From the NCBI GenBank assembly GCA_000500915.1, contig AYNO01000018.1:1-35955 (forward strand): a stretch of 35,955 nt of DNA. Direction: 5' to 3'. Positions 10,769-35,955 of the stretch are shown piece by piece (within the stretch, counting starts at the first letter, position 1; each line of letters starts with the position of its first letter). Origin of the DNA: Rhodobacter sp. CACIA14H1. GTDB lineage: Bacteria; Pseudomonadota; Alphaproteobacteria; Rhodobacterales; Rhodobacteraceae. The notes below the pieces were generated by a model. That model was not told the origin of the DNA. It worked only from the letters and a program-made list of their open reading frames with translations, and made no database searches. The translations under genes and the position numbers were made by a program.

Positions 10769-13654
<2,886 letters not shown>

Positions 13655-24553: not shown

Positions 24554-25516
24554 TCACGAAGGGTGCCGGGACTGCAAAAGGCGGCGCAGGCTCCGCGCAT
24601 CCTCGAACCCCAGCTCGTGGGCGATCTGCTCGCGCGTCATGCCGCCTGCATTCATCCGCGCCCGCGCCCTTGCCAGCCTGACGGTGTGCAGCAACGCGCG
24701 GTAGCTGGTGCCTGCCTCCTCCAGCCGCCGCCGCAGGCTCCGCTCGCTGGTTCCAAAGGCAGCCGCCACCCGCGCCAGCGGTTCCACCTCGGGCAGGGAC
24801 CGGATGATCCGGGCCTCGATGGCGTGCAGCATGTCCCGCTGGCCCTGCTCGGCATCGACAAGCGCCTGAAGCGCAAGCTGCGTCTCGGCAAAGGCGAAGG
24901 AATCGGCCTGCGGATTGGCCGTGTCCAGCACCGGCCCCGCCAGAAGCACCGACTGCCGCTCTGCCCCGTATTCGACCTCGCAGGCGCAAAAGGCCGAAAA
25001 CCGCCGCCTGTCCACGGGACGGAAGGGCGTCGTGACCTTAAGCACCGGGTTCCGGCCCGCGGACATGAACCGCGCCGCGATCAGGATCATCACATGCGCC
25101 TCCTGCATCAGGAACCGCCGGACCGGCGACCCGGCAAAGCGCGACTGCATCGTGATCAGCAACCCCCCGTCCGGCCGCTCCGTCGCATCGAAGTCCAACA
25201 TGGTGCCCAGGATGCTGTGATACCGCAGGCCCACATGCACGGCATCGCGCAGCGTCGGGCTGGCAAGCATCGCAGCGGCCACAAGACCGAACGACGCAAA
25301 GGTCTGCCGGTAGCCGACGGCCAGCCCGAGATCGGGATCACCCGACAGGTCCAGCGCACGCAGCAGCAATGCCTGGCTCTGCAGGAAACTGATCCTCTGG
25401 TGGTTGGGCAGCGTCCCGTCCGCCCGGAAGACGGACCAGTCCGGATCGCGTCCCGGATCCAGACCGCGCGACTGCAATTCGTGAAAGGTGTGGAACAGGA
25501 TCTGCGGCGTGATCAT
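24554..25516 (-). CDS. AraC family transcriptional regulator
   Basis: N-terminal AraC-type ligand domain and C-terminal HTH: RVAAAFGTSERSLRRRLEEAGTSYRALLHTVRLARARARMNAGGMTREQIAHELGFEDARSLRRLLQSR. Confidence 0.9.
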   Translation of the reverse strand: MITPQILFHTFHELQSRGLDPGRDPDWSVFRADGTLPNHQRISFLQSQALLLRALDLSGDPDLGLAVGYRQTFASFGLVAAAMLASPTLRDAVHVGLRYHSILGTMLDFDATERPDGGLLITMQSRFAGSPVRRFLMQEAHVMILIAARFMSAGRNPVLKVTTPFRPVDRRRFSAFCACEVEYGAERQSVLLAGPVLDTANPQADSFAFAETQLALQALVDAEQGQRDMLHAIEARIIRSLPEVEPLARVAAAFGTSERSLRRRLEEAGTSYRALLHTVRLARARARMNAGGMTREQIAHELGFEDARSLRRLLQSRHPS

Positions 25517-25712
25517 CACGCGCTCCTGCCGCTCTGCCAGGTTCACCGCCACACCGTCCCCCGACCATCACCCGCACCGGTCTGAAAGCATGATGCTTTT
25601 GGCCGAACTTGTCCAGTTTCGGGCCGAAGCTGCCCTTATCGGCGCGGCTGTCCGGCCGCATCCTCCGCCAACGCAAGGGAAAGTGCGACCGACAGGAAAA
25701 GGGGACGTGTTT

Positions 25713-26828
25713 ATGATTGCACGGGGTATCTATGCCGCAATGGCGGCAATGGCCGTGACGGCCGGTCATGCAACGGCAGGTGCGCTGGAGCAGACGAACC
25801 AGTCCATTCCCATCCTGTTCGAACAGGGCGGTTATGCCGAACTCGGCTTCACGCTGGCCTCCCCCGACGTGCGGGGCACCGACATCCTCGGAACCGGAAC
25901 GGGCAATGTCGGCCGCGACTACAGCATGGGCAGCCTCGGTCTGAAACTGGACCTGACGGACAGCATGTCCGCCGCGCTGGTGGTGGATCAGCCCTTCGGG
26001 ATCAGCGTGGCCTACGGCCCGGCGTCACCCGTCTTTGCCGGCACGACCGGACAGATGGACAGCACGGCCGTCACCGCCCTGCTCCGCTACCGGCTGGACG
26101 GCGGATGGGCAATCCATGGCGGCCTGCGCGGGCAGTGGCTGGACGCTTCGGCTCGGCTCGGCGGGCTGGGGGCAGGTCCGGCGGACGGCTATGCGGTCCG
26201 GCTCGGCCGGGAATTCGGCGTCGGATACGTCCTCGGCGGATCCTACGAATTGCCCGACATCGCGCTGCGCGTCGCCCTGACCTACAATTCCGAAATCCGG
26301 TATGACGCCACCACGACCGAAACCCTGCCCGCCGCCTTCGGTGGTCCGGCCGTCGTGACCGCGCCCATCTCCTACGCCACGCCGCAATCGCTCAACCTCG
26401 ATATCCAGTCGGGAATCGCCGAGCGCACGCTTGTCTTCGGGTCCATCCGCTGGGTGGACTGGTCGGCCTTCAACCTGTCTCCGGCAACCTTCACCGCCGC
26501 GACCGGCGAGGCACTGGCAAGCTATCCCAGCGACATCGTCACCTACACGCTCGGTGTCGGCCACCAGGTCACGGACAGCCTGTCGCTGGCGGCCGCCGTC
26601 GCCTACGAGGATGAACGCAACCGCGCCGGTTCGCCGCTCGGTCCCGTGAATGGCTATACCAGCCTCTCCGTCGCGGCGATCCACGAAACCGAACGGCACC
26701 GCCTCTCGGTCGGCATCGGCCACTACTGGCTGCGCGACGCCGACCCGCAGGCAGGCGGCGCACCGCTCGGCACCTTCCGCGACAACCGCCTGACCGCCAT
26801 CGAAGTGAAATTCGGCTTCAAGTTCTGA
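25713..26828 (+). CDS. FadL/OmpP1-like outer membrane transport protein
   Basis: Signal peptide MIARGIYAAMAAMAVTAGHATAGALEQTNQSIPILFEQGGYAELGFTLASPDVRG; beta-barrel pattern ending in KFGFKF. Confidence 0.82.
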   Translation: MIARGIYAAMAAMAVTAGHATAGALEQTNQSIPILFEQGGYAELGFTLASPDVRGTDILGTGTGNVGRDYSMGSLGLKLDLTDSMSAALVVDQPFGISVAYGPASPVFAGTTGQMDSTAVTALLRYRLDGGWAIHGGLRGQWLDASARLGGLGAGPADGYAVRLGREFGVGYVLGGSYELPDIALRVALTYNSEIRYDATTTETLPAAFGGPAVVTAPISYATPQSLNLDIQSGIAERTLVFGSIRWVDWSAFNLSPATFTAATGEALASYPSDIVTYTLGVGHQVTDSLSLAAAVAYEDERNRAGSPLGPVNGYTSLSVAAIHETERHRLSVGIGHYWLRDADPQAGGAPLGTFRDNRLTAIEVKFGFKF

Positions 26829-26861
26829 CCATCACGCAGACAAGGATTGGGGAACCCCGCC

Positions 26862-28241
26862 ATGACCACGACACAACAGAAAATCTGCATCATCGGGGCC
26901 GGTCCTGCCGGTCTCGCCATGGCACGCGCCTGTCTGGTGGCGGGCGTCCCCTATGACCAGTTCGACGCACACAGCGATGTGGGCGGGCTCTGGGACATCG
27001 ACCAGCCCGGCTCGCCGATGTATGAAAGCGCGCATTTCATCTCGTCCAAGACCATGTCGGGCTTCGACGGTTTCCCCTTTCCGGCGGATTACCCGGACTA
27101 CCCCTCGCACCGCCAGATCCTGACCTATATCCGCGCCTTCGCGGACCATTGGTCCCTGCGCGACCGCATCCGCTTCTCCACCCGCATCGCCGACATCGAA
27201 AAGCAGGACGAAGGCGACTGGATCGTCACGCTCGATAGCGGCGAACGCCGCCGCTACCTCGGCGTGGTCTGCGCCACCGGCTCGAACTGGCACCCCCGCA
27301 TCCCGGAATTCAAAGGCCATTTCGACGGCGAAATCCGGCATTCCGGCACCTATCGCAGCCCTGACGAATTCAGGGGCAAGCGCGTCATGGTCGTGGGCGC
27401 GGGCAATTCCGGCGTGGACATCGCCTGCGACGCCGCCACCAACGCGGACCGCGCCTTCCTGTCCGTCCGCCGCGGCTACCATTTCGTGCCGAAGCACATC
27501 ATGGGCACACCCACCGATGTCTTCGCCTCCTCCGGCCCGAAGCTGCCGCTCTGGCTGATGCGGATCGTCTTCGGCGGCCTGCTGAAATTCTACGTGGGGG
27601 ATGTCACCCGCGTCGGCTTGCCCAAACCCGACCACAAGCTGCTGGAATCCCACCCCATCCTGAACACGCAGGTCTTGCACCACATGCACCACGGCGACCT
27701 GATCGCCAAACCCGACATCGACCGTCTGGACGGCAACGGCGTCATCTTCAAGGACGGCACGCGCGAGGAACTGGACATGATCCTCCTCGCCACCGGCTAC
27801 ACGCAGGTCCAGCCCTATGCCCGCGACTACTTCCGCTACGAAGGCGGGCGCCCGAACATGTACCTGCAGCTCTTTTCGCGCGAACACCGCAACCTGACCG
27901 CGCCCAGCTTCATCGAAACCAACTCCGGCGCGTTCAAGCTGTTCGACCTCATGGCCTTCGCCATCGCCAACCACATCAAGGACCAGATCGACGGCAAACC
28001 GCAGGCCGCCCAGATGGCCCGCATGATCCGCGAGGATGCGCCCGACCTGACCGGCGGAATCCGCTTCGTCGCGTCGGATCGGCACGCCTCCTATTTCGAC
28101 AGCGACAGCTGGCAGAAATACCTCAAGGGCATCTTCCGCAAGATGGGCTGGACACTGCCCGACAGGCACCCCGCCGTCACGACCAACACCCCGCCGAAAC
28201 CGGGGTCCAATGTCACCTCCTTCAAGATTGCAGCCGAGTAA
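26862..28241 (+). CDS. Flavin-containing monooxygenase (FMO family)
   Basis: IIGAGPAGLAMA Rossmann; FMO fingerprint F-D-G-E-I-R-H-S-G-T-Y; second Rossmann MVVGAGNSGVDIA. Confidence 0.93.
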   Translation: MTTTQQKICIIGAGPAGLAMARACLVAGVPYDQFDAHSDVGGLWDIDQPGSPMYESAHFISSKTMSGFDGFPFPADYPDYPSHRQILTYIRAFADHWSLRDRIRFSTRIADIEKQDEGDWIVTLDSGERRRYLGVVCATGSNWHPRIPEFKGHFDGEIRHSGTYRSPDEFRGKRVMVVGAGNSGVDIACDAATNADRAFLSVRRGYHFVPKHIMGTPTDVFASSGPKLPLWLMRIVFGGLLKFYVGDVTRVGLPKPDHKLLESHPILNTQVLHHMHHGDLIAKPDIDRLDGNGVIFKDGTREELDMILLATGYTQVQPYARDYFRYEGGRPNMYLQLFSREHRNLTAPSFIETNSGAFKLFDLMAFAIANHIKDQIDGKPQAAQMARMIREDAPDLTGGIRFVASDRHASYFDSDSWQKYLKGIFRKMGWTLPDRHPAVTTNTPPKPGSNVTSFKIAAE

Positions 28242-28251
28242 GGACCTCATC

Positions 28252-29058
28252 ATGACCAGAACAGCACTGCTGACCGGTGCGACGGGTGGCCTCGGACAGG
28301 CCATCGCAGCACGGATGGCCGCCGACGGATACCGCCTGATCCTCGTGGATTTCGACGCCACGCGACTGGCTGACATGGCCGCCCGCTATCCGGGGGCCGA
28401 GACGCATGTCCTCGACCAGCGCGATCCCGCCGCCGTGACCCGCTTCTGCGAAGAAGCGATCGAACAGGGCACCTTCGCCGATGTCGCCGTCGTCAATGCG
28501 GGGATGCTGGTGATCGGCAATGTCGCGGACATCTCGCGTCAGGCCATGCTTGACCAGTTGCAGGTGAACCTCGTCTCCGGCGCCCTGATGATCCAGTCCC
28601 TTGCCCGCCGCATGTCGCGCGAACGCAAGGGGCACATCATCGCCACCGTCTCCATGGGCGGGATCGTCTCGCTCAAGGGCAGCGCCACCTATTCGGCGTC
28701 CAAATTCGGCCTGCGCGGCCTGCTCTGGGGCCTGCGGGACGAACTGTCGGCGGATGGCGTGCATGTCACCGGCATCTATCCGGCCGGCATCGACACGCCC
28801 ATGCTCCGGCACGAGGCGCGCAATGGCGGCTCCGCCCTCAACTTCGTCGGTGATCCCGTGACGGTGGATGATGTCGTGGACGCGATCACCGGCGCCCTGC
28901 GCAAACCCCGCCTCGAAGTCTATGTGCCCTATTCCGAAGGGCTCACTGGCCGGATCGCCGGTGCCTGGCCGGGCCTTCTCGCCCGCCTCTACCCCATGCT
29001 GGAACGGATGGGCGAGAAGGGCCGCGCCAAATTCCTGCGGCGCATCGGCGAAGCGTGA
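28252..29058 (+). CDS. Short-chain dehydrogenase/reductase
   Basis: TALLTGATGGLGQAIA (TGxxxGxG); SATYSASKFGLRGLLWGLRDEL (YxxxK). Confidence 0.94.
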   Translation: MTRTALLTGATGGLGQAIAARMAADGYRLILVDFDATRLADMAARYPGAETHVLDQRDPAAVTRFCEEAIEQGTFADVAVVNAGMLVIGNVADISRQAMLDQLQVNLVSGALMIQSLARRMSRERKGHIIATVSMGGIVSLKGSATYSASKFGLRGLLWGLRDELSADGVHVTGIYPAGIDTPMLRHEARNGGSALNFVGDPVTVDDVVDAITGALRKPRLEVYVPYSEGLTGRIAGAWPGLLARLYPMLERMGEKGRAKFLRRIGEA

Positions 29059-29082: not shown

Positions 29083-29892
29083 TCAGTCCTCCGCGCCGCC
29101 ATAGAGGAAACCCTCGCTCAACTCGATCTGCGGCCGCAGCATGGCCGAACCGGGCATCACGCGGCAGCCGGCAGCCCGCGCCGCCGCGATGAAAGGCGTG
29201 TCCTGCGGGCTGATCACCACATCCGCAACCATGGCCTCCGGCGCAATGCCGTCCAGCGCGACGGGCATCCCCTCGCTTCCGCCCATGCCCACGGATGTCG
29301 CATTCGCAACCAGATCGAACCCCGCCAAGGCATCCGTCCCCACCGCCCCGACCGTCCCGACCGCCAACCCCGTCGCCCGCGTCACCTCCTGCGACAGCGC
29401 CGCAGCCTTCCCCGCATCGCGGTTGGAAAGGACCAGCCCGCCCACCCCCGCACCCGCCAGCGCGAAGGCAATCGCCCGCCCCACGCCGCCCGCGCCCAGG
29501 AGCAGCACGCGCCGCCCCTCCGGCTCGAACCCGCTCGCCCGCAGCCCGCGCAGGAAGCCCAGCCCGTCCAGATTGTGCCCGGTCAGCGTCCCGTCCCCCT
29601 CGCGCCGCACGAAGTTCACCGAACCGGCCTGCTCCGCCGCGTCCGTCCGGCGGTCCACCAGCGCCGCCGCGGCAATCTTGTGCGGCGCGGTGATGCACAG
29701 CCCCCGGATGTTGTCCACCCGCCGCACCAGCGCCAGCGCCGCCGCCAGATCCTCCGGCAGCACGTTCAGCCCCCCGCAGCAGAAATCATGGCCCATCGCG
29801 GCGAAATGCTCGTTGAACAGGATCGGCGCCCGGAAATGCCGGACCGGCGTGCCGACGATGTAGAAAAGGTCCGTCTGTCCCGTGATCTGCAT
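29083..29892 (-). CDS. Shikimate dehydrogenase-like protein (copy 1, divergent)
   Basis: IVGTPVRHFRAPILFNEHF; ITAPHKIAAAALVD; GHNLDGLGFLRGL; LLLGAGGVGRAIAFALAGAGV; SNRD. Confidence 0.88.
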   Translation of the reverse strand: MQITGQTDLFYIVGTPVRHFRAPILFNEHFAAMGHDFCCGGLNVLPEDLAAALALVRRVDNIRGLCITAPHKIAAAALVDRRTDAAEQAGSVNFVRREGDGTLTGHNLDGLGFLRGLRASGFEPEGRRVLLLGAGGVGRAIAFALAGAGVGGLVLSNRDAGKAAALSQEVTRATGLAVGTVGAVGTDALAGFDLVANATSVGMGGSEGMPVALDGIAPEAMVADVVISPQDTPFIAAARAAGCRVMPGSAMLRPQIELSEGFLYGGAED

Positions 29893-29895
29893 CGC

Positions 29896-30702
29896 TCACC
29901 CCTCCAACAGGCCAAAGAATTCCGCCACCAGCGCGGGCTGGGGCTTCAACATCTCCGCCCCGCCGATCACGGGGCACCCCCGCGCTGCGGCCTCTGCCAG
30001 CAGCCGGGTCATCGCGGGCTGGACGATCACCTCGGCAACGGTGGTCCGGTCCTCCAGCCCCGTCAGGTCCAGCGGTAGCGGCTCGTCCGGTTTCATGCCC
30101 AGCGACGTTCCGTTCACCACGAGGTCCGCCCGCGCCACCGACCCCGCATCCGCCATGGCAACGCGACACCCCGGCACCGCGCTGCGCAACTCTGCGGCCA
30201 GCGCCTCGGCCTTCGCGCGGTCGCGGTTCATCAGGTCCAGCCCCGCCACCCCCGCCTCTGCCAGCGCAAAGGCGATGGCCCGTCCCACGCCCCCCGTCCC
30301 GCACAGCAGCGCCTGCCGCCCCGCCGGATCGAACCCGTTGGCCCGCAGACCGCCAAGGAACCCGGCGCCGTCCGTATTCGTGCCCGTCAGCGTGCCGTCT
30401 GCATTGCGCCGGACGAAGTTGGTCGCCCCCATCCGCCGCGCCACGGGCGTCAGGTCATCGACCAGCGACCATGCCGCCACCTTGTGCGGGATCGTTATGC
30501 CCAGCCCCGCCACGTTCCGCATCCGCCGCACGGCCTGCAGCATCCCGTCCAGATCGGCAGGCGCCACATGGATCGGCAGGATCACCGCATCCAGCCCCAG
30601 TGCGGCAAAACTGTCATTGATCAGCGCGGTCCCGCGGATATGCGACACGGGATCGGCCAGCATCAGCATGACCGCGGTCTTTCCGGTAATCGGCCCCGTC
30701 AT
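29896..30702 (-). CDS. Shikimate dehydrogenase-like protein (copy 2, divergent)
   Basis: MLADPVSHIRGTALINDSF; ITIPHKVAAWSLVDD; GTNTDGAGFLGGL; LLCGTGGVGRAIAFALAEAGV; MNRD. Confidence 0.88.
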   Translation of the reverse strand: MTGPITGKTAVMLMLADPVSHIRGTALINDSFAALGLDAVILPIHVAPADLDGMLQAVRRMRNVAGLGITIPHKVAAWSLVDDLTPVARRMGATNFVRRNADGTLTGTNTDGAGFLGGLRANGFDPAGRQALLCGTGGVGRAIAFALAEAGVAGLDLMNRDRAKAEALAAELRSAVPGCRVAMADAGSVARADLVVNGTSLGMKPDEPLPLDLTGLEDRTTVAEVIVQPAMTRLLAEAAARGCPVIGGAEMLKPQPALVAEFFGLLEG

Positions 30703-30705
30703 GCG

Positions 30706-32142
30706 TCACCCCTTCCGCGTGACAAGCCGCGTTTCCAGATAGGCGTCCAGCGCCTCCGACCCGCCCTCGGTCCCATGGCCCGACTCCTTCATCCCGCCGA
30801 ACGGGATTTCCGGCAGCGCCAGCCCCAGATGGTTGATGGACAGCATCCCCGCCTCCACCTCCGCGCCCAGCCGTGTCGCCGTGGCCGTGTCGCGGGTGAA
30901 GGCAAAGGCCGCCAGCGCGAAGGGCAGGCGGTTCGCCTCGGCAATCGCGTCCTCCAGCGCGGAAAAGCGGTTCACGATGGCGACCGGACCGAAAGGCTCC
31001 TCGTTCATGATCCGCGCCGTGACGGGCACATCGGCCAGCACCGTGGGCGCATAGAACCACCCCTCGTTCCCGATGCGCCGTCCCCCCGCCAGCAGCCGCG
31101 CCCCGTGGTCCACGGCATCGGCCACCAGCGCCTCCAGCGCCGGTATCCGCCGTTCGTTGGCCAGCGGCCCCATCTCCGTGTCGGGGTCCATCCCGTTGCC
31201 CACCCGCAACCGCTGCGCCGCCTCGGCGAAACGGGCGGCAAAGGCATCCGCCAGCGGCTCCTGCACAAGGAAACGGGTCGGCGCCACGCAGACCTGCCCC
31301 GCATTGCGGAACTTGTTGGGAATGATCGTCGCTGCCGCAAGGTCAAGGTCCGCATCCGCCGTGATGATGACCGGCGCATGTCCGCCCAGCTCCATCGTCG
31401 CCCGCTTCATATGCGCACCGGCCAGCGCGGCCAGATGCTTGCCGACAGGCGTCGATCCCGTGAAGCTCACCTTCCGGATGACCGGATGCGGGATCAGGTA
31501 TTCCGAAATCTCGGCCGGAACGCCGAAGACAAGGTTGGCCACCCCCGCCGGCAGCCCCGCATCGGCAAAGGCGCGCAGCAGTTCCGCCGGACTCGCAGGC
31601 GTTTCCTCGGGCGCCTTCACGATGATCGAACAGCCCGCCGCCAGCGCCGCCGACAGCTTGCGCACCACCTGGTTGATGGGAAAGTTCCACGGCGTAAAGG
31701 CCGCAACCGGCCCGACCGGCAGCTTCAGCGTCATCTGCAGCACATCGGGCGCCCGCGACGGGATCACCTGCCCGTAGGCCCTCTGCGCCTCGCCTGCGAA
31801 CCAGTCGATGATATCGGCCCCCGCCAGCGTCTCCAGCCGCGCCTGCGCCAGCGGCTTGCCATTCTCGCGCACCATGAGCGTGGCCACATCCTCGGCCCGC
31901 GCCCGCAGGATATCCGCCGCCTTGCGCATCAGCTTCGCGCGGTCATGGGCCGGGGTCAGCCGCCAGACATGGAACCCCCGATCCGCCGCCGCCAGCGCGG
32001 CATCCAGATCGCCGCGCCCCGCATGGGCCACCGTCCCGATCCTGCCGCCCGTGGCAGGGTCCAGCACCGGAATGACCCGTCCGTCCGATGCGGGCCGCCA
32101 GACGCCGTCGATGTAAAGCAGGGTATCGGGATAGGGGATCAT
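30706..32142 (-). CDS. NAD(P)-dependent aldehyde dehydrogenase, succinate-semialdehyde dehydrogenase-like
   Basis: [74 protein letters not shown]. Confidence 0.94.
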
Positions 32143-34081
32143 CGCTTTGCCTTCCTGTCGCTCTGGAACATCGGCCCGCCCTTGCCGCGCGGAAAGCCGT
32201 AGCCATGCACCTGCACGAGGTCGATATCCGCCGGACCCGCCGCGATGCCCTCGGCAAGGATCGCCCGCCCTTCCGCCGCCATGGCGCCCACCAGCCGGTC
32301 CACGATCTCTGCCGCAGCCAGACCCGGCCCCGACCCCGCCAGCGGCGCAATGATCCGCGCCGCCTCGGGCGACGGGCGCGGCGTCCGGTCGCCGGGGAAA
32401 TAGTCATACCAGCCGCCGCCCGTCTTCATACCCTTCCGTCCCGCCCGCACCAGCAGGTCGCCGGGTGTTTCCGGCACATCCTCGCCCCGCGCCCGCGCCG
32501 CCTCGCGGTTCATGAAACTGATGTCCAGCCCCGCCATGTCCTGCATCTCGAACGGCCCCATCGCATAGCCGAAACCGCGCATCGCCGCGTCGATATCGGC
32601 ATGGCCCACGCCCTCGCGCAGCATCGCCTCGGCCTCGGCGCGATACCGCTTCAGGATGCGGTTGCCGATGAATCCCTCGCAGATGCCCGCCCGCACCGGC
32701 ACCTTCCCCAGCTTCCGCGCCAGATCGAAGGCCGTGGCCAGAACCGTCAGGCCGGTCCCCGGCAACGGGATGACCTCAAGCAGTTTCATCACCTGCGCCG
32801 GGCTGAAGAAATGCAGCCCGATGAACCGCTCCGGCCCCGCCAACCCCTCCGCGATCAGCCGCGGATCGATGTAGGATGTATTCGTGGCAAGGATCGTATC
32901 AGCCCGGCAAAGGCGGACCAGTTCCGCAAAGACCCCGCGCTTCACCGCCAGATCCTCGAACACCGCCTCCACGACCAGATCGCAACCCGCCAGCCCGTCC
33001 AGCCCGACACAGCCCGTCACACCGGCCATCCGTTCCGCCGCGACCGCCTCCGTCACCGTCCCGCGCTTTACCGCCGCGTCGAAGATCGCCCCGACCGCGC
33101 CCATGCCCCGCTCCAGCGCCGCCCCGTCGCGTTCGGACAGGATGACCCGCAGGCCCGCCATGCGGAAGGCGGCGGCGATGCCGCTTCCCATCGTCCCGCC
33201 CCCCACGACGCCGACCGTCTCCACCCGCTGCGGGTCCACCCCGCGCAGATCGGCCGGACGCGCCGCCGCCCGTTCCGCAAAGAACAGGTGCCGCAGGGCC
33301 GCCGCCTCGTCCGACGCCTTCAGGGCAAGGAAGATCTCCCGCTCGTTCCGCAGCCCTTCGGCCACACCCTGCTCCACCCCGTGCCGCACGGCCCGCAACG
33401 CGGCAGGCGGCGCGGATTGCCCCTTCGCCCCCTTGGCGATGCGGGCGGCCGCCGCCTCCCAGAAGACCGCGCCGGGATCGGGCAGGGGGCGAAGTCCCGC
33501 CGGCTGCCGCGCCCCCGGAAGCGAGGCCGCAAATTCCACCGCACCCGCCGTCAGATCCCCCTCGATGACGCGGTCCACCCAGCCCGGCCCGCGCGGCCCG
33601 CTCGGTGTCCAGCTATGTCGCGCTCCGCGATCACCGGTATGGCCGCCGCCAGCCCGATCAGACGCGGCAGCCTTTGCGTGCCCCCCGCCCCGGGAATGAT
33701 GCCCAGCGTCACCTCGGGCAGGCCCATCGTCGCCCCGCGTGCCGCGACGCGGTAATGGCACCCCAGCGCCAGTTCCAGCCCGCCACCCAGCGCCTGCCCG
33801 TGGATCGCCGCAACCCACGGCTTCGCCGCCCCCTCGATCCGCGCGATCAGCTCGGGCAGGACCGGCGGCTCCGGCGGGCGGTCGAATTCCGCGATATCCG
33901 CCCCCCCGACAAACAGCTTCCCCGCCCCCCGCAGCACGATGGCCGCAACCGCCGGGTCGGCCTCCAGCGCACCCGCCAGTTCCAGAAGCCGCGCCCGCAC
34001 GGCCGTCTTCAGGGCATTCACGGGCGGGTTGTCGATGGTCAGGACGGCAACGCTGCCGTGACGCTCCACTATGACGGTCAT
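32139..34081 (-). pseudogene. FadJ/FadB-like enoyl-CoA hydratase/3-hydroxyacyl-CoA dehydrogenase, frameshifted in this sequence
   Basis: N-terminal hydratase in ORF 33551..34081 ([25 protein letters not shown]...[23 protein letters not shown]); remainder in the frame of ORF 32139..34457 from [13 protein letters not shown] (VGVVGGGTMGSGIAAAFRMAGLRV...). Frame change near 33575-33640. Confidence 0.88.
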
Positions 34082-34114
34082 CTCTGTCTTTCCTGCGTAT
34101 GGCTTCCGCGGCGC

Positions 34115-35371
34115 TCAGGCCGTCGCGCCCTCTAGGTCCAGTCCGGCGGCAGGGGCAACATCGCGGCAGGCGATCACCCCCTGCGCCACCAGCGCATCGA
34201 TCCGCGCCGGATCGAACCCCAGCACATCCCGCAGCACCGCCCGCGTATCCTCGCCCAGCAGCGGCGGCGCCTTCGGCCTGTGCCCCTCCTGCGCCGCCAG
34301 TCCCTGCGCGGGCCGGATCAGCGACACGGGCCCCAGCTCCGGATGCTCCAGCGTCTGGATCACCCCCCGCTCCACCACCGATTTCGCCTGCAGCGCCTCG
34401 GCAACCGACTTCACCGGTCCGGCGGGCACATCGGCGGCCAGACAGGCCGCCAGCCAATGCGCCATCGGGCGGCGCTCCACGATGGCCTGTATCGTGTCCA
34501 GCAGGTCCTGCCGGTGCAGCGCCCGCTGGTGCGACGTGACATAGCGGGTATCGCGGGCAAGATCGGGGCGATCGATCACCTGCTCGCAGAAATCCGCGAA
34601 CATCCGGTCATTCCCCACCGCCAGCGCAAAGGGCCCGTCCGATGCCGTGAAAAGCTGGTAGGGCACCACCGTCGGATGCGCATTGCCATAGCGCGTCGCC
34701 TCCACACCGGCGTTCAGATAGGCCGTCCCCACGTTGATCAGCAGGTTCAGCGTCGAATCCAGCAGCGCCACGTCGATGAACTGGCCCAGCCCCGTTTCCC
34801 GCCGCTGGTACAGCGCCGCCAGCACCGACTGCGTCGCCACCATGCCCGCCACCACATCCGTGAAGGCCACGCCCAGCCGGTTCGGCGGCCCGTCCGCCGC
34901 GCCGGTGATCGACATCAGCCCGCTTTCCGCCTGCATGATGAAATCATAACCCGGCCGCGTCGCCTCCGGCCCCGTCTGCCCGTAGCCCGAGATCGAACAA
35001 TAGACGATCCCCGGATTGATCCGGCGCAGGTCGTCATAGCCGATGCCCAGCCGGTCCACCGTTCCGGCGCGGAAATTCTCCACCACCACATCCGCCCGCG
35101 CCGCAAGCTCCAGAACGATCGCCTTCCCCTCCGGCGCCTTCAGGTCCAGCGCGATGCTCTGCTTGCCGCGATTGGCACAGAGGTAATACGTGCTGATCCC
35201 CTTGTAACTCGGCACCGACCAGGCCCGCGTGTCGTCTCCGCCCCGGATGTTCTCGATCTTCCAGACCTCGGCCCCCATGTCCGCAAGGCTCATGGTCGTC
35301 CACGGTCCGGCAAGGACCCGGGTGAGGTCCAGCACCTTGATGCCTTCCAGCGGCAGGGTCTGCATCGTCAT
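34115..35371 (-). CDS. CaiB/BaiF family (class III) CoA-transferase
   Basis: [46 protein letters not shown]...[40 protein letters not shown]. Confidence 0.95.
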
Positions 35372-35390: not shown

Positions 35391-35955
35391 TCAGCCGGTC
35401 GCTGCCAGACCCGTTTCCCGGGCACTTGGAAAATGGCAGGCGACGGCATGTCCTCCGTCCCTGTCGGCCAGCGGCGGTTCCAGTGTGGCGCAGACCGGCT
35501 GCGCGATCGGGCAGCGCGTCCGGAAACGGCAGCCCGACGGCGGGTTGATCGGGCTGGGCACATCGCCCTTCAGCACGATGCGGGCGCGGCTGCGTTCGCG
35601 CGGCGGATCGGCCAGCGGCACCGCCGACATCAGCGCCTGCGTGTACGGGTGCAGCGGCGCGGAATAGAGCTGCCGCTTCTCCGCCACCTCGACGATCTTG
35701 CCCAGATACATCACCGCCACCCGGTCCGAGATGTGCTGCACCACCGACAGGTCATGCGCGATGAAGACGAAGGCGGTGCCGAACTCCCGCTGGATGTCCT
35801 TCAGCAGGTTCAGGACCCCCGCCTGCACCGAAACATCCAGCGCCGATACCGGCTCGTCCAGCACCAGAAGATCGGGCCGCAGCGCCAGCGCGCGGGCGAT
35901 CACCACCCGCTGCCTCTGCCCGCCCGACAGCGCGTGCGGATAGCGGTCCGCATGT
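35391..35955 (-). CDS. Oligopeptide/dipeptide-type ABC transporter ATP-binding protein (OppF/DppF-like), 5' end outside the window
   Basis: [55 protein letters not shown]...[15 protein letters not shown] (oligo_HPY tail). Confidence 0.94.

Follow-up and report, generated by a model that had tools for sequence, protein, structure and literature searches.

Tandem shikimate dehydrogenase-fold proteins without the shikimate clamp in a candidate catabolic operon of Rhodobacter sp. CACIA14H1

What would a bacterium do with two adjacent shikimate dehydrogenase (SDH) homologs that both lack the residues used to hold shikimate? The question is raised by the window, the whole 35,955-nt stretch that was analysed (positions 1 to 35,955 of contig AYNO01000018.1, here C18, of Rhodobacter sp. 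CACIA14H1), in which two full-length ORFs, SDH-A and SDH-B, are separated by 3 nt (29893-29895) and encode proteins of ~50% identity. An earlier note, made from the letters alone, described them as tandem SDH-like paralogues; ORFs and alignment bear out their coordinates and every motif it quoted (HFRAP, ITAPHK, NLDG, GAGGVGRA and the late Gln in SDH-A; HIRGT, ITIPHK, NTDG, GTGGVGRA and the late Gln in SDH-B). The genes and their key sites are:

29083..29892, minus strand: SDH-A, clamp-less SDH-fold protein, 269 aa (ORF; PF08501, 55 bits)
29824..29838, minus strand: HFRAP of SDH-A, residues 19-23, in the place of the HSxSP clamp of AroE (aligned with Ser14/Ser16 of E. coli AroE)
29677..29679, minus strand: predicted catalytic Lys72 of SDH-A, equivalent to AroE Lys65 (alignment, invariant)
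29566..29568, minus strand: predicted catalytic Asp109 of SDH-A, equivalent to AroE Asp102 (alignment)
29896..30702, minus strand: SDH-B, clamp-less SDH-fold protein, 268 aa (ORF; PF08501, 57.7 bits)
30628..30642, minus strand: HIRGT of SDH-B, residues 21-25, at the site of the AroE clamp (alignment)
30481..30483, minus strand: predicted catalytic Lys74 of SDH-B (alignment)
30370..30372, minus strand: predicted catalytic Asp111 of SDH-B (alignment)

Both proteins belong to the SDH superfamily: each has the Pfam Shikimate_dh_N domain well above its cut-off of 27 bits, the catalytic Lys and Asp, and a predicted two-domain fold. The AF2 models are confident (mean pLDDT 91.1 for SDH-A and 91.6 for SDH-B), and the leading Foldseek matches of both are SDH-family structures, with PDB 4k28 the best. 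Which member of the family they are is another matter. All scores against the NCBIfam shikimate/quinate models fall far under the cut-offs (the best are 184 and 185 vs 252); the AroE equivalog TIGR00507 gives 141 bits for SDH-A and 136 for SDH-B against a cut-off of 200, and the YdiB model PRK12749 gives 99 and 108 against 349.

The alignment indicates where the difference lies. Equivalents of E. coli AroE Thr61, Lys65, Asn86, Asp102 and Gln244 are retained in both proteins. The SxS clamp is gone, as the earlier note had read from the HFRAP and HIRGT motifs: Ser14/Ser16 of AroE align with Phe/Ala in SDH-A and with Ile/Gly in SDH-B. Also gone, and absent from that note, is the substrate Tyr, with E. 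coli Tyr215 replaced by Ile in SDH-A and Val in SDH-B. These replacements are stable: HFRAP is unchanged in the SDH-A orthologues of Agrobacterium, Ancylobacter and Gemmobacter, HIRG[TS] is retained in 8/8 core SDH-B sequences, and SDH-B is under purifying selection (dN/dS ~0.11-0.17; the ratio is for SDH-B only since synonymous sites of SDH-A are saturated). Sequencing error or pseudogene drift is thereby ruled out as the origin of the motif loss in SDH-B, by dN/dS and conservation; for SDH-A, motif conservation speaks against it. What might hold a substrate in place of the clamp? A pair of Arg residues follows Asn86 (residues 96-97 of SDH-A) and is present in 100% and 96% of the clamp-less relatives described below; it may serve as a substitute anchor.

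Is the loss of SxS special to this tandem pair? It is not: it marks an old clade. In a quick tree, computed with the motif columns excluded and carrying SH-aLRT support only, the clamp-less proteins form one clade of 52 sampled proteins (support 99) with P. putida 4k28 inside; long branches occur at E. coli AroE and L027_2. The tree, which covers AroE and YdiB of the five subfamilies that the note had named for comparison, places SDH-A and SDH-B on the clamp-less branch, separate from both enzymes; with SxS and Tyr215 lost and the Arg pair present, the two have every mark of the clade. SDH-A groups with three orthologues (support 100) and SDH-B with seven from other loci (support 99); the two clades are separate and each reaches into other alphaproteobacterial orders, which rules out a recent tandem duplication. 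Across 75 proteins, SxS and Tyr215 co-occur without exception (both in 22, neither in 53), a coincidence whose Fisher p-value does not stand for many independent events because two changes per trait suffice on the tree.

The clade is already represented in structural databases by 4k28, an SDH family protein from Pseudomonas putida KT2440 and the closest PDB match to SDH-A and SDH-B by both sequence and predicted fold; its profile score is 206 bits vs 96 for Ael1 (3pwz) and 92 for HI0607 (1npy). Like the Rhodobacter proteins, 4k28 lacks Tyr215 and has the Arg pair; unlike them, it keeps the second Ser of the clamp (QVKSP), and its identity to them is only 35-36%. A function assigned to 4k28 was looked for and not found. 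In the plasmid records examined, annotated clade members are mostly labelled shikimate dehydrogenase despite the missing shikimate-binding residues, so the clamp-less subfamily is probably mislabelled. A simple sequence test would separate it from AroE: SxS absent, Tyr215 absent and Arg-Arg after Asn86.

How do the two proteins compare with better-known members of the family? AroE shares with them the fold, the catalytic Lys and Asp, Asn86, Thr61 and Gln244 but has the SxS clamp and Tyr215. YdiB has the same fold and catalytic residues but retains HSLSP and the Tyr and sits on a separate branch. The Gluconobacter 5-ketofructose reductase (PDB 7cok, 7col) resembles SDH-A and SDH-B more closely in one respect: it has the SDH fold and has lost both the clamp and Tyr215. 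Unlike them, it falls outside the clamp-less clade, lacks the Arg pair and has another motif at the clamp, and on the tree its clamp loss counts as a change of its own. As it acts on a keto-sugar, it is a precedent for an SDH-fold enzyme with a non-shikimate substrate. All three proteins have an NRDxxKA stretch in the cofactor domain; since the reductase was solved with NADPH, the NRD motif is no sign of NAD preference, and that reading was discarded.

Does the bacterium have another enzyme for shikimate? Contig C56 encodes an AroE N-terminus with an intact HSRSP clamp, which runs for ~86 residues to the contig end; the remainder was searched for and not found, and the gene is probably complete in the organism. 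A genome without any other aroE is ruled out by this canonical gene, the separate housekeeping aroE that the earlier note had expected. On the same contig, a single uninterrupted reading frame spans maf and aroE (L086 3-860).

If not shikimate, then what? SDH-A and SDH-B close an operon, and the other operon genes lie upstream of SDH-B:

30706..32142, minus strand: aldehyde dehydrogenase, succinate-semialdehyde-dehydrogenase-like (PF00171, 522 bits; SSADH model 467, under the cut-off of 646)
32139..34112 (upstream end approximate), minus strand: enoyl-CoA hydratase/3-hydroxyacyl-CoA dehydrogenase fusion, frameshifted
34115..35371, minus strand: CaiB-type (family III) CoA-transferase (PF02515, 419 bits)
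35391..35955, minus strand: 3' part of an OppF-type ABC ATPase, 187 aa, cut by the contig end

The best NCBIfam model for the CoA-transferase is succinate-glutarate CoA-transferase (354 bits, under the cut-off of 750). In the hydratase/dehydrogenase gene, the frame changes near 33584-33614 relative to intact relatives; this may be a mutation, which would leave the operon partly broken, or an error of the assembly. Where does the operon begin? The 187 aa of OppF on C18 and 148 aa at positions 1-444 of contig C21 (L080 1-444) make up a protein of 335 aa, and this split gene, together with the matching gene order in relatives, indicates that C18 and C21 are probably neighbours. Beyond OppF, C21 encodes (families named on the Agrobacterium proteins) OppDCB, an IclR regulator, an AcoC-type E2, a class II aldolase and a DUF1537 kinase, and, further on, an acyl-CoA dehydrogenase, a fused E1, a binding protein, class III and class IV aminotransferases and a ThuA-like protein. 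Convergent with the operon, window positions 25488-29058 (plus strand) carry FadL/TodX, flavin monooxygenase and SDR genes.

The cluster is kept in Agrobacterium sp. T29 (on a plasmid), Ancylobacter tetraedralis, Gemmobacter aquaticus, Xinfangfangia pollutisoli and two Rhodobacteraceae MAGs. The Agrobacterium version has two extra genes, for a 3-oxoadipyl-CoA thiolase (714 vs a cut-off of 605) and an enolase-superfamily dehydratase, and its kinase is 3-oxo-tetronate-kinase-like (273 bits, cut-off 350). At L041 8607-9173, a gene for the same kind of dehydratase is without its middle; what is left aligns with residues 1-80 and 193-373 of its Agrobacterium counterpart. Literature searches on the SDH subfamilies, the gene combination and the pathway, mostly outside subscription journals, yielded no description of the cluster.

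Other clamp-less genes have similar company. In 18 further clamp-less loci from the genome scan, a transketolase/E1 homolog occurs in 14, a DUF1537 kinase and a class III aminotransferase in 10 each, a class II aldolase in 9 and an Opp permease in 7; these are raw counts without a background rate, and several of the loci are short. Five loci (L048, L051, L054, L055 and L059) have the clamp-less gene immediately behind the class II aldolase, with the DUF1537 kinase adjacent. The kinase, aldolase and aminotransferase neighbours suggest an acid-sugar or amino-polyol role for clamp-less genes, and the SDH-A/SDH-B cluster has the same linkage to a DUF1537 kinase and a class II aldolase. Recurrent near clamp-less SDH genes is also an N,N-dimethylformamidase-like protein (L042, L044, L048, L051, L054, L055 and L062). 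Outside this group, three Nitrospinota SDH genes that keep HTMSP and the Tyr lie directly before a CaiB-type CoA-transferase gene (L063, L064 and L065).

Taken in combination, the lost residues, the cluster content and the separate aroE make the case against shikimate, and a non-shikimate dehydrogenase role is likely, as the earlier note had proposed. The reading that we favour, and consider reasonably probable, is that SDH-A and SDH-B are NAD(P)-dependent alcohol dehydrogenases of the clamp-less clade that serve an undescribed catabolic operon. They would transfer hydride between a secondary alcohol or ketone and the nicotinamide via the conserved Lys-Asp pair, with the substrate held without SxS and Tyr, perhaps by the clade's Arg pair. 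From gene content we infer a route and its possible order: Opp-type uptake, deamination and dehydrogenation would be followed by acid-sugar kinase/aldolase steps and E1/E2 cleavage, and then by aldehyde oxidation, CoA transfer and beta-oxidation. Possibly, SDH-A and SDH-B act in succession and catalyze two steps on a polyol or hydroxy acid. Whatever the details, the conserved cluster offers a testable path toward the substrate.

Could this operon be a variant of a known pathway? In the LtnD/OtnK/OtnC pathway for four-carbon acid sugars, the same logic of a dehydrogenase, a DUF1537 kinase and a class II aldolase is at work, and the dehydrogenase comes from a family other than SDH. A narrower version of the favoured reading would have SDH-A and SDH-B replace LtnD/DenD as sugar-acid dehydrogenases. 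The five loci with aldolase-adjacent clamp-less genes and the 3-oxo-tetronate-kinase-like Agrobacterium enzyme fit this idea, and dehydrogenase-kinase-decarboxylase logic has been described (PMC12540250). However, the kinase and the aldolase of the SDH cluster score under the equivalog cut-offs, and the CoA-ester genes, E1/E2 and aminotransferases would be superfluous for a tetronate pathway; we regard the replacement as a tentative, rather unlikely candidate. Somewhat less likely still is a bolder proposal, in which an undescribed pathway would use clamp-less SDH-fold enzymes to oxidize an amino-polyol or cyclitol at one or two of its hydroxyls, cleave the resulting acyloin or diketone to acyl-CoA by E1/E2 and finish through an adipate-like CoA ester via a 3-oxoadipyl-CoA thiolase; the clade would then be a new SDH functional class, with SxS and Tyr lost and the Arg pair gained.

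Does the loss of SxS suffice to exclude shikimate-like substrates? One clamp-less subgroup, with FRAP or FKAP at the clamp, says no: in 4/5 loci examined, a 3-dehydroquinate dehydratase gene lies within ~8 kb (~3 kb in L036, ~8 kb in L097, ~5 kb in L098 and one gene away in L099), and L036 has protocatechuate genes alongside. SxS loss alone therefore does not exclude a quinate/shikimate substrate, and a clamp-less active site may, by analogy with this subgroup, be able to accept quinate-like acids. SDH-A and SDH-B could accordingly be read as quinate/shikimate-type dehydrogenases that bind the carboxylate through other residues, for example the (nearly) invariant Arg pair, in the catabolism of quinate-like acids. 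Yet they lie elsewhere in the clade than the FRAP/FKAP subgroup; no quinate or protocatechuate-forming genes and no 3-dehydroquinate dehydratase were identified in their cluster; and it is hard to see what the CoA and acid-sugar genes would do in a quinate route. These differences make the quinate-type reading improbable for this pair.

Why, then, two dehydrogenases? Genome searches found SDH-A orthologues in Ancylobacter and Gemmobacter (61-70%). SDH-A was sought and not found in four SDH-B-bearing genomes (a Rhodobacter MAG, Xinfangfangia, a Rhodobacteraceae MAG and Microvirga), two of which are MAGs and possibly incomplete; in the Rhodobacter MAG, a decayed SDH-A remnant lies directly behind an intact SDH-B (L050 ~10903-11040). 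SDH-B is the conserved core partner and SDH-A an extra; in the route that we favour, SDH-B would carry out a core oxidation and SDH-A an additional or alternative one. The earlier note had taken the tandem arrangement as a hint of a heteromeric enzyme, and the adjacent genes with their 3-nt gap and the retention of the pair in four genomes would suit an obligate heteromer, but the four genomes with SDH-B alone, the decay of SDH-A and the full catalytic residue set in each protein leave that idea very doubtful. Two minor observations concern related genes: in Brucella cytisi, an SDH-B-like gene is present in two overlapping pieces, which suggests a frameshift (L060 9962-10650), and in another genome two SDH-family paralogues lie on opposite strands, ~100 bp apart (G094:C27 379101-380736).
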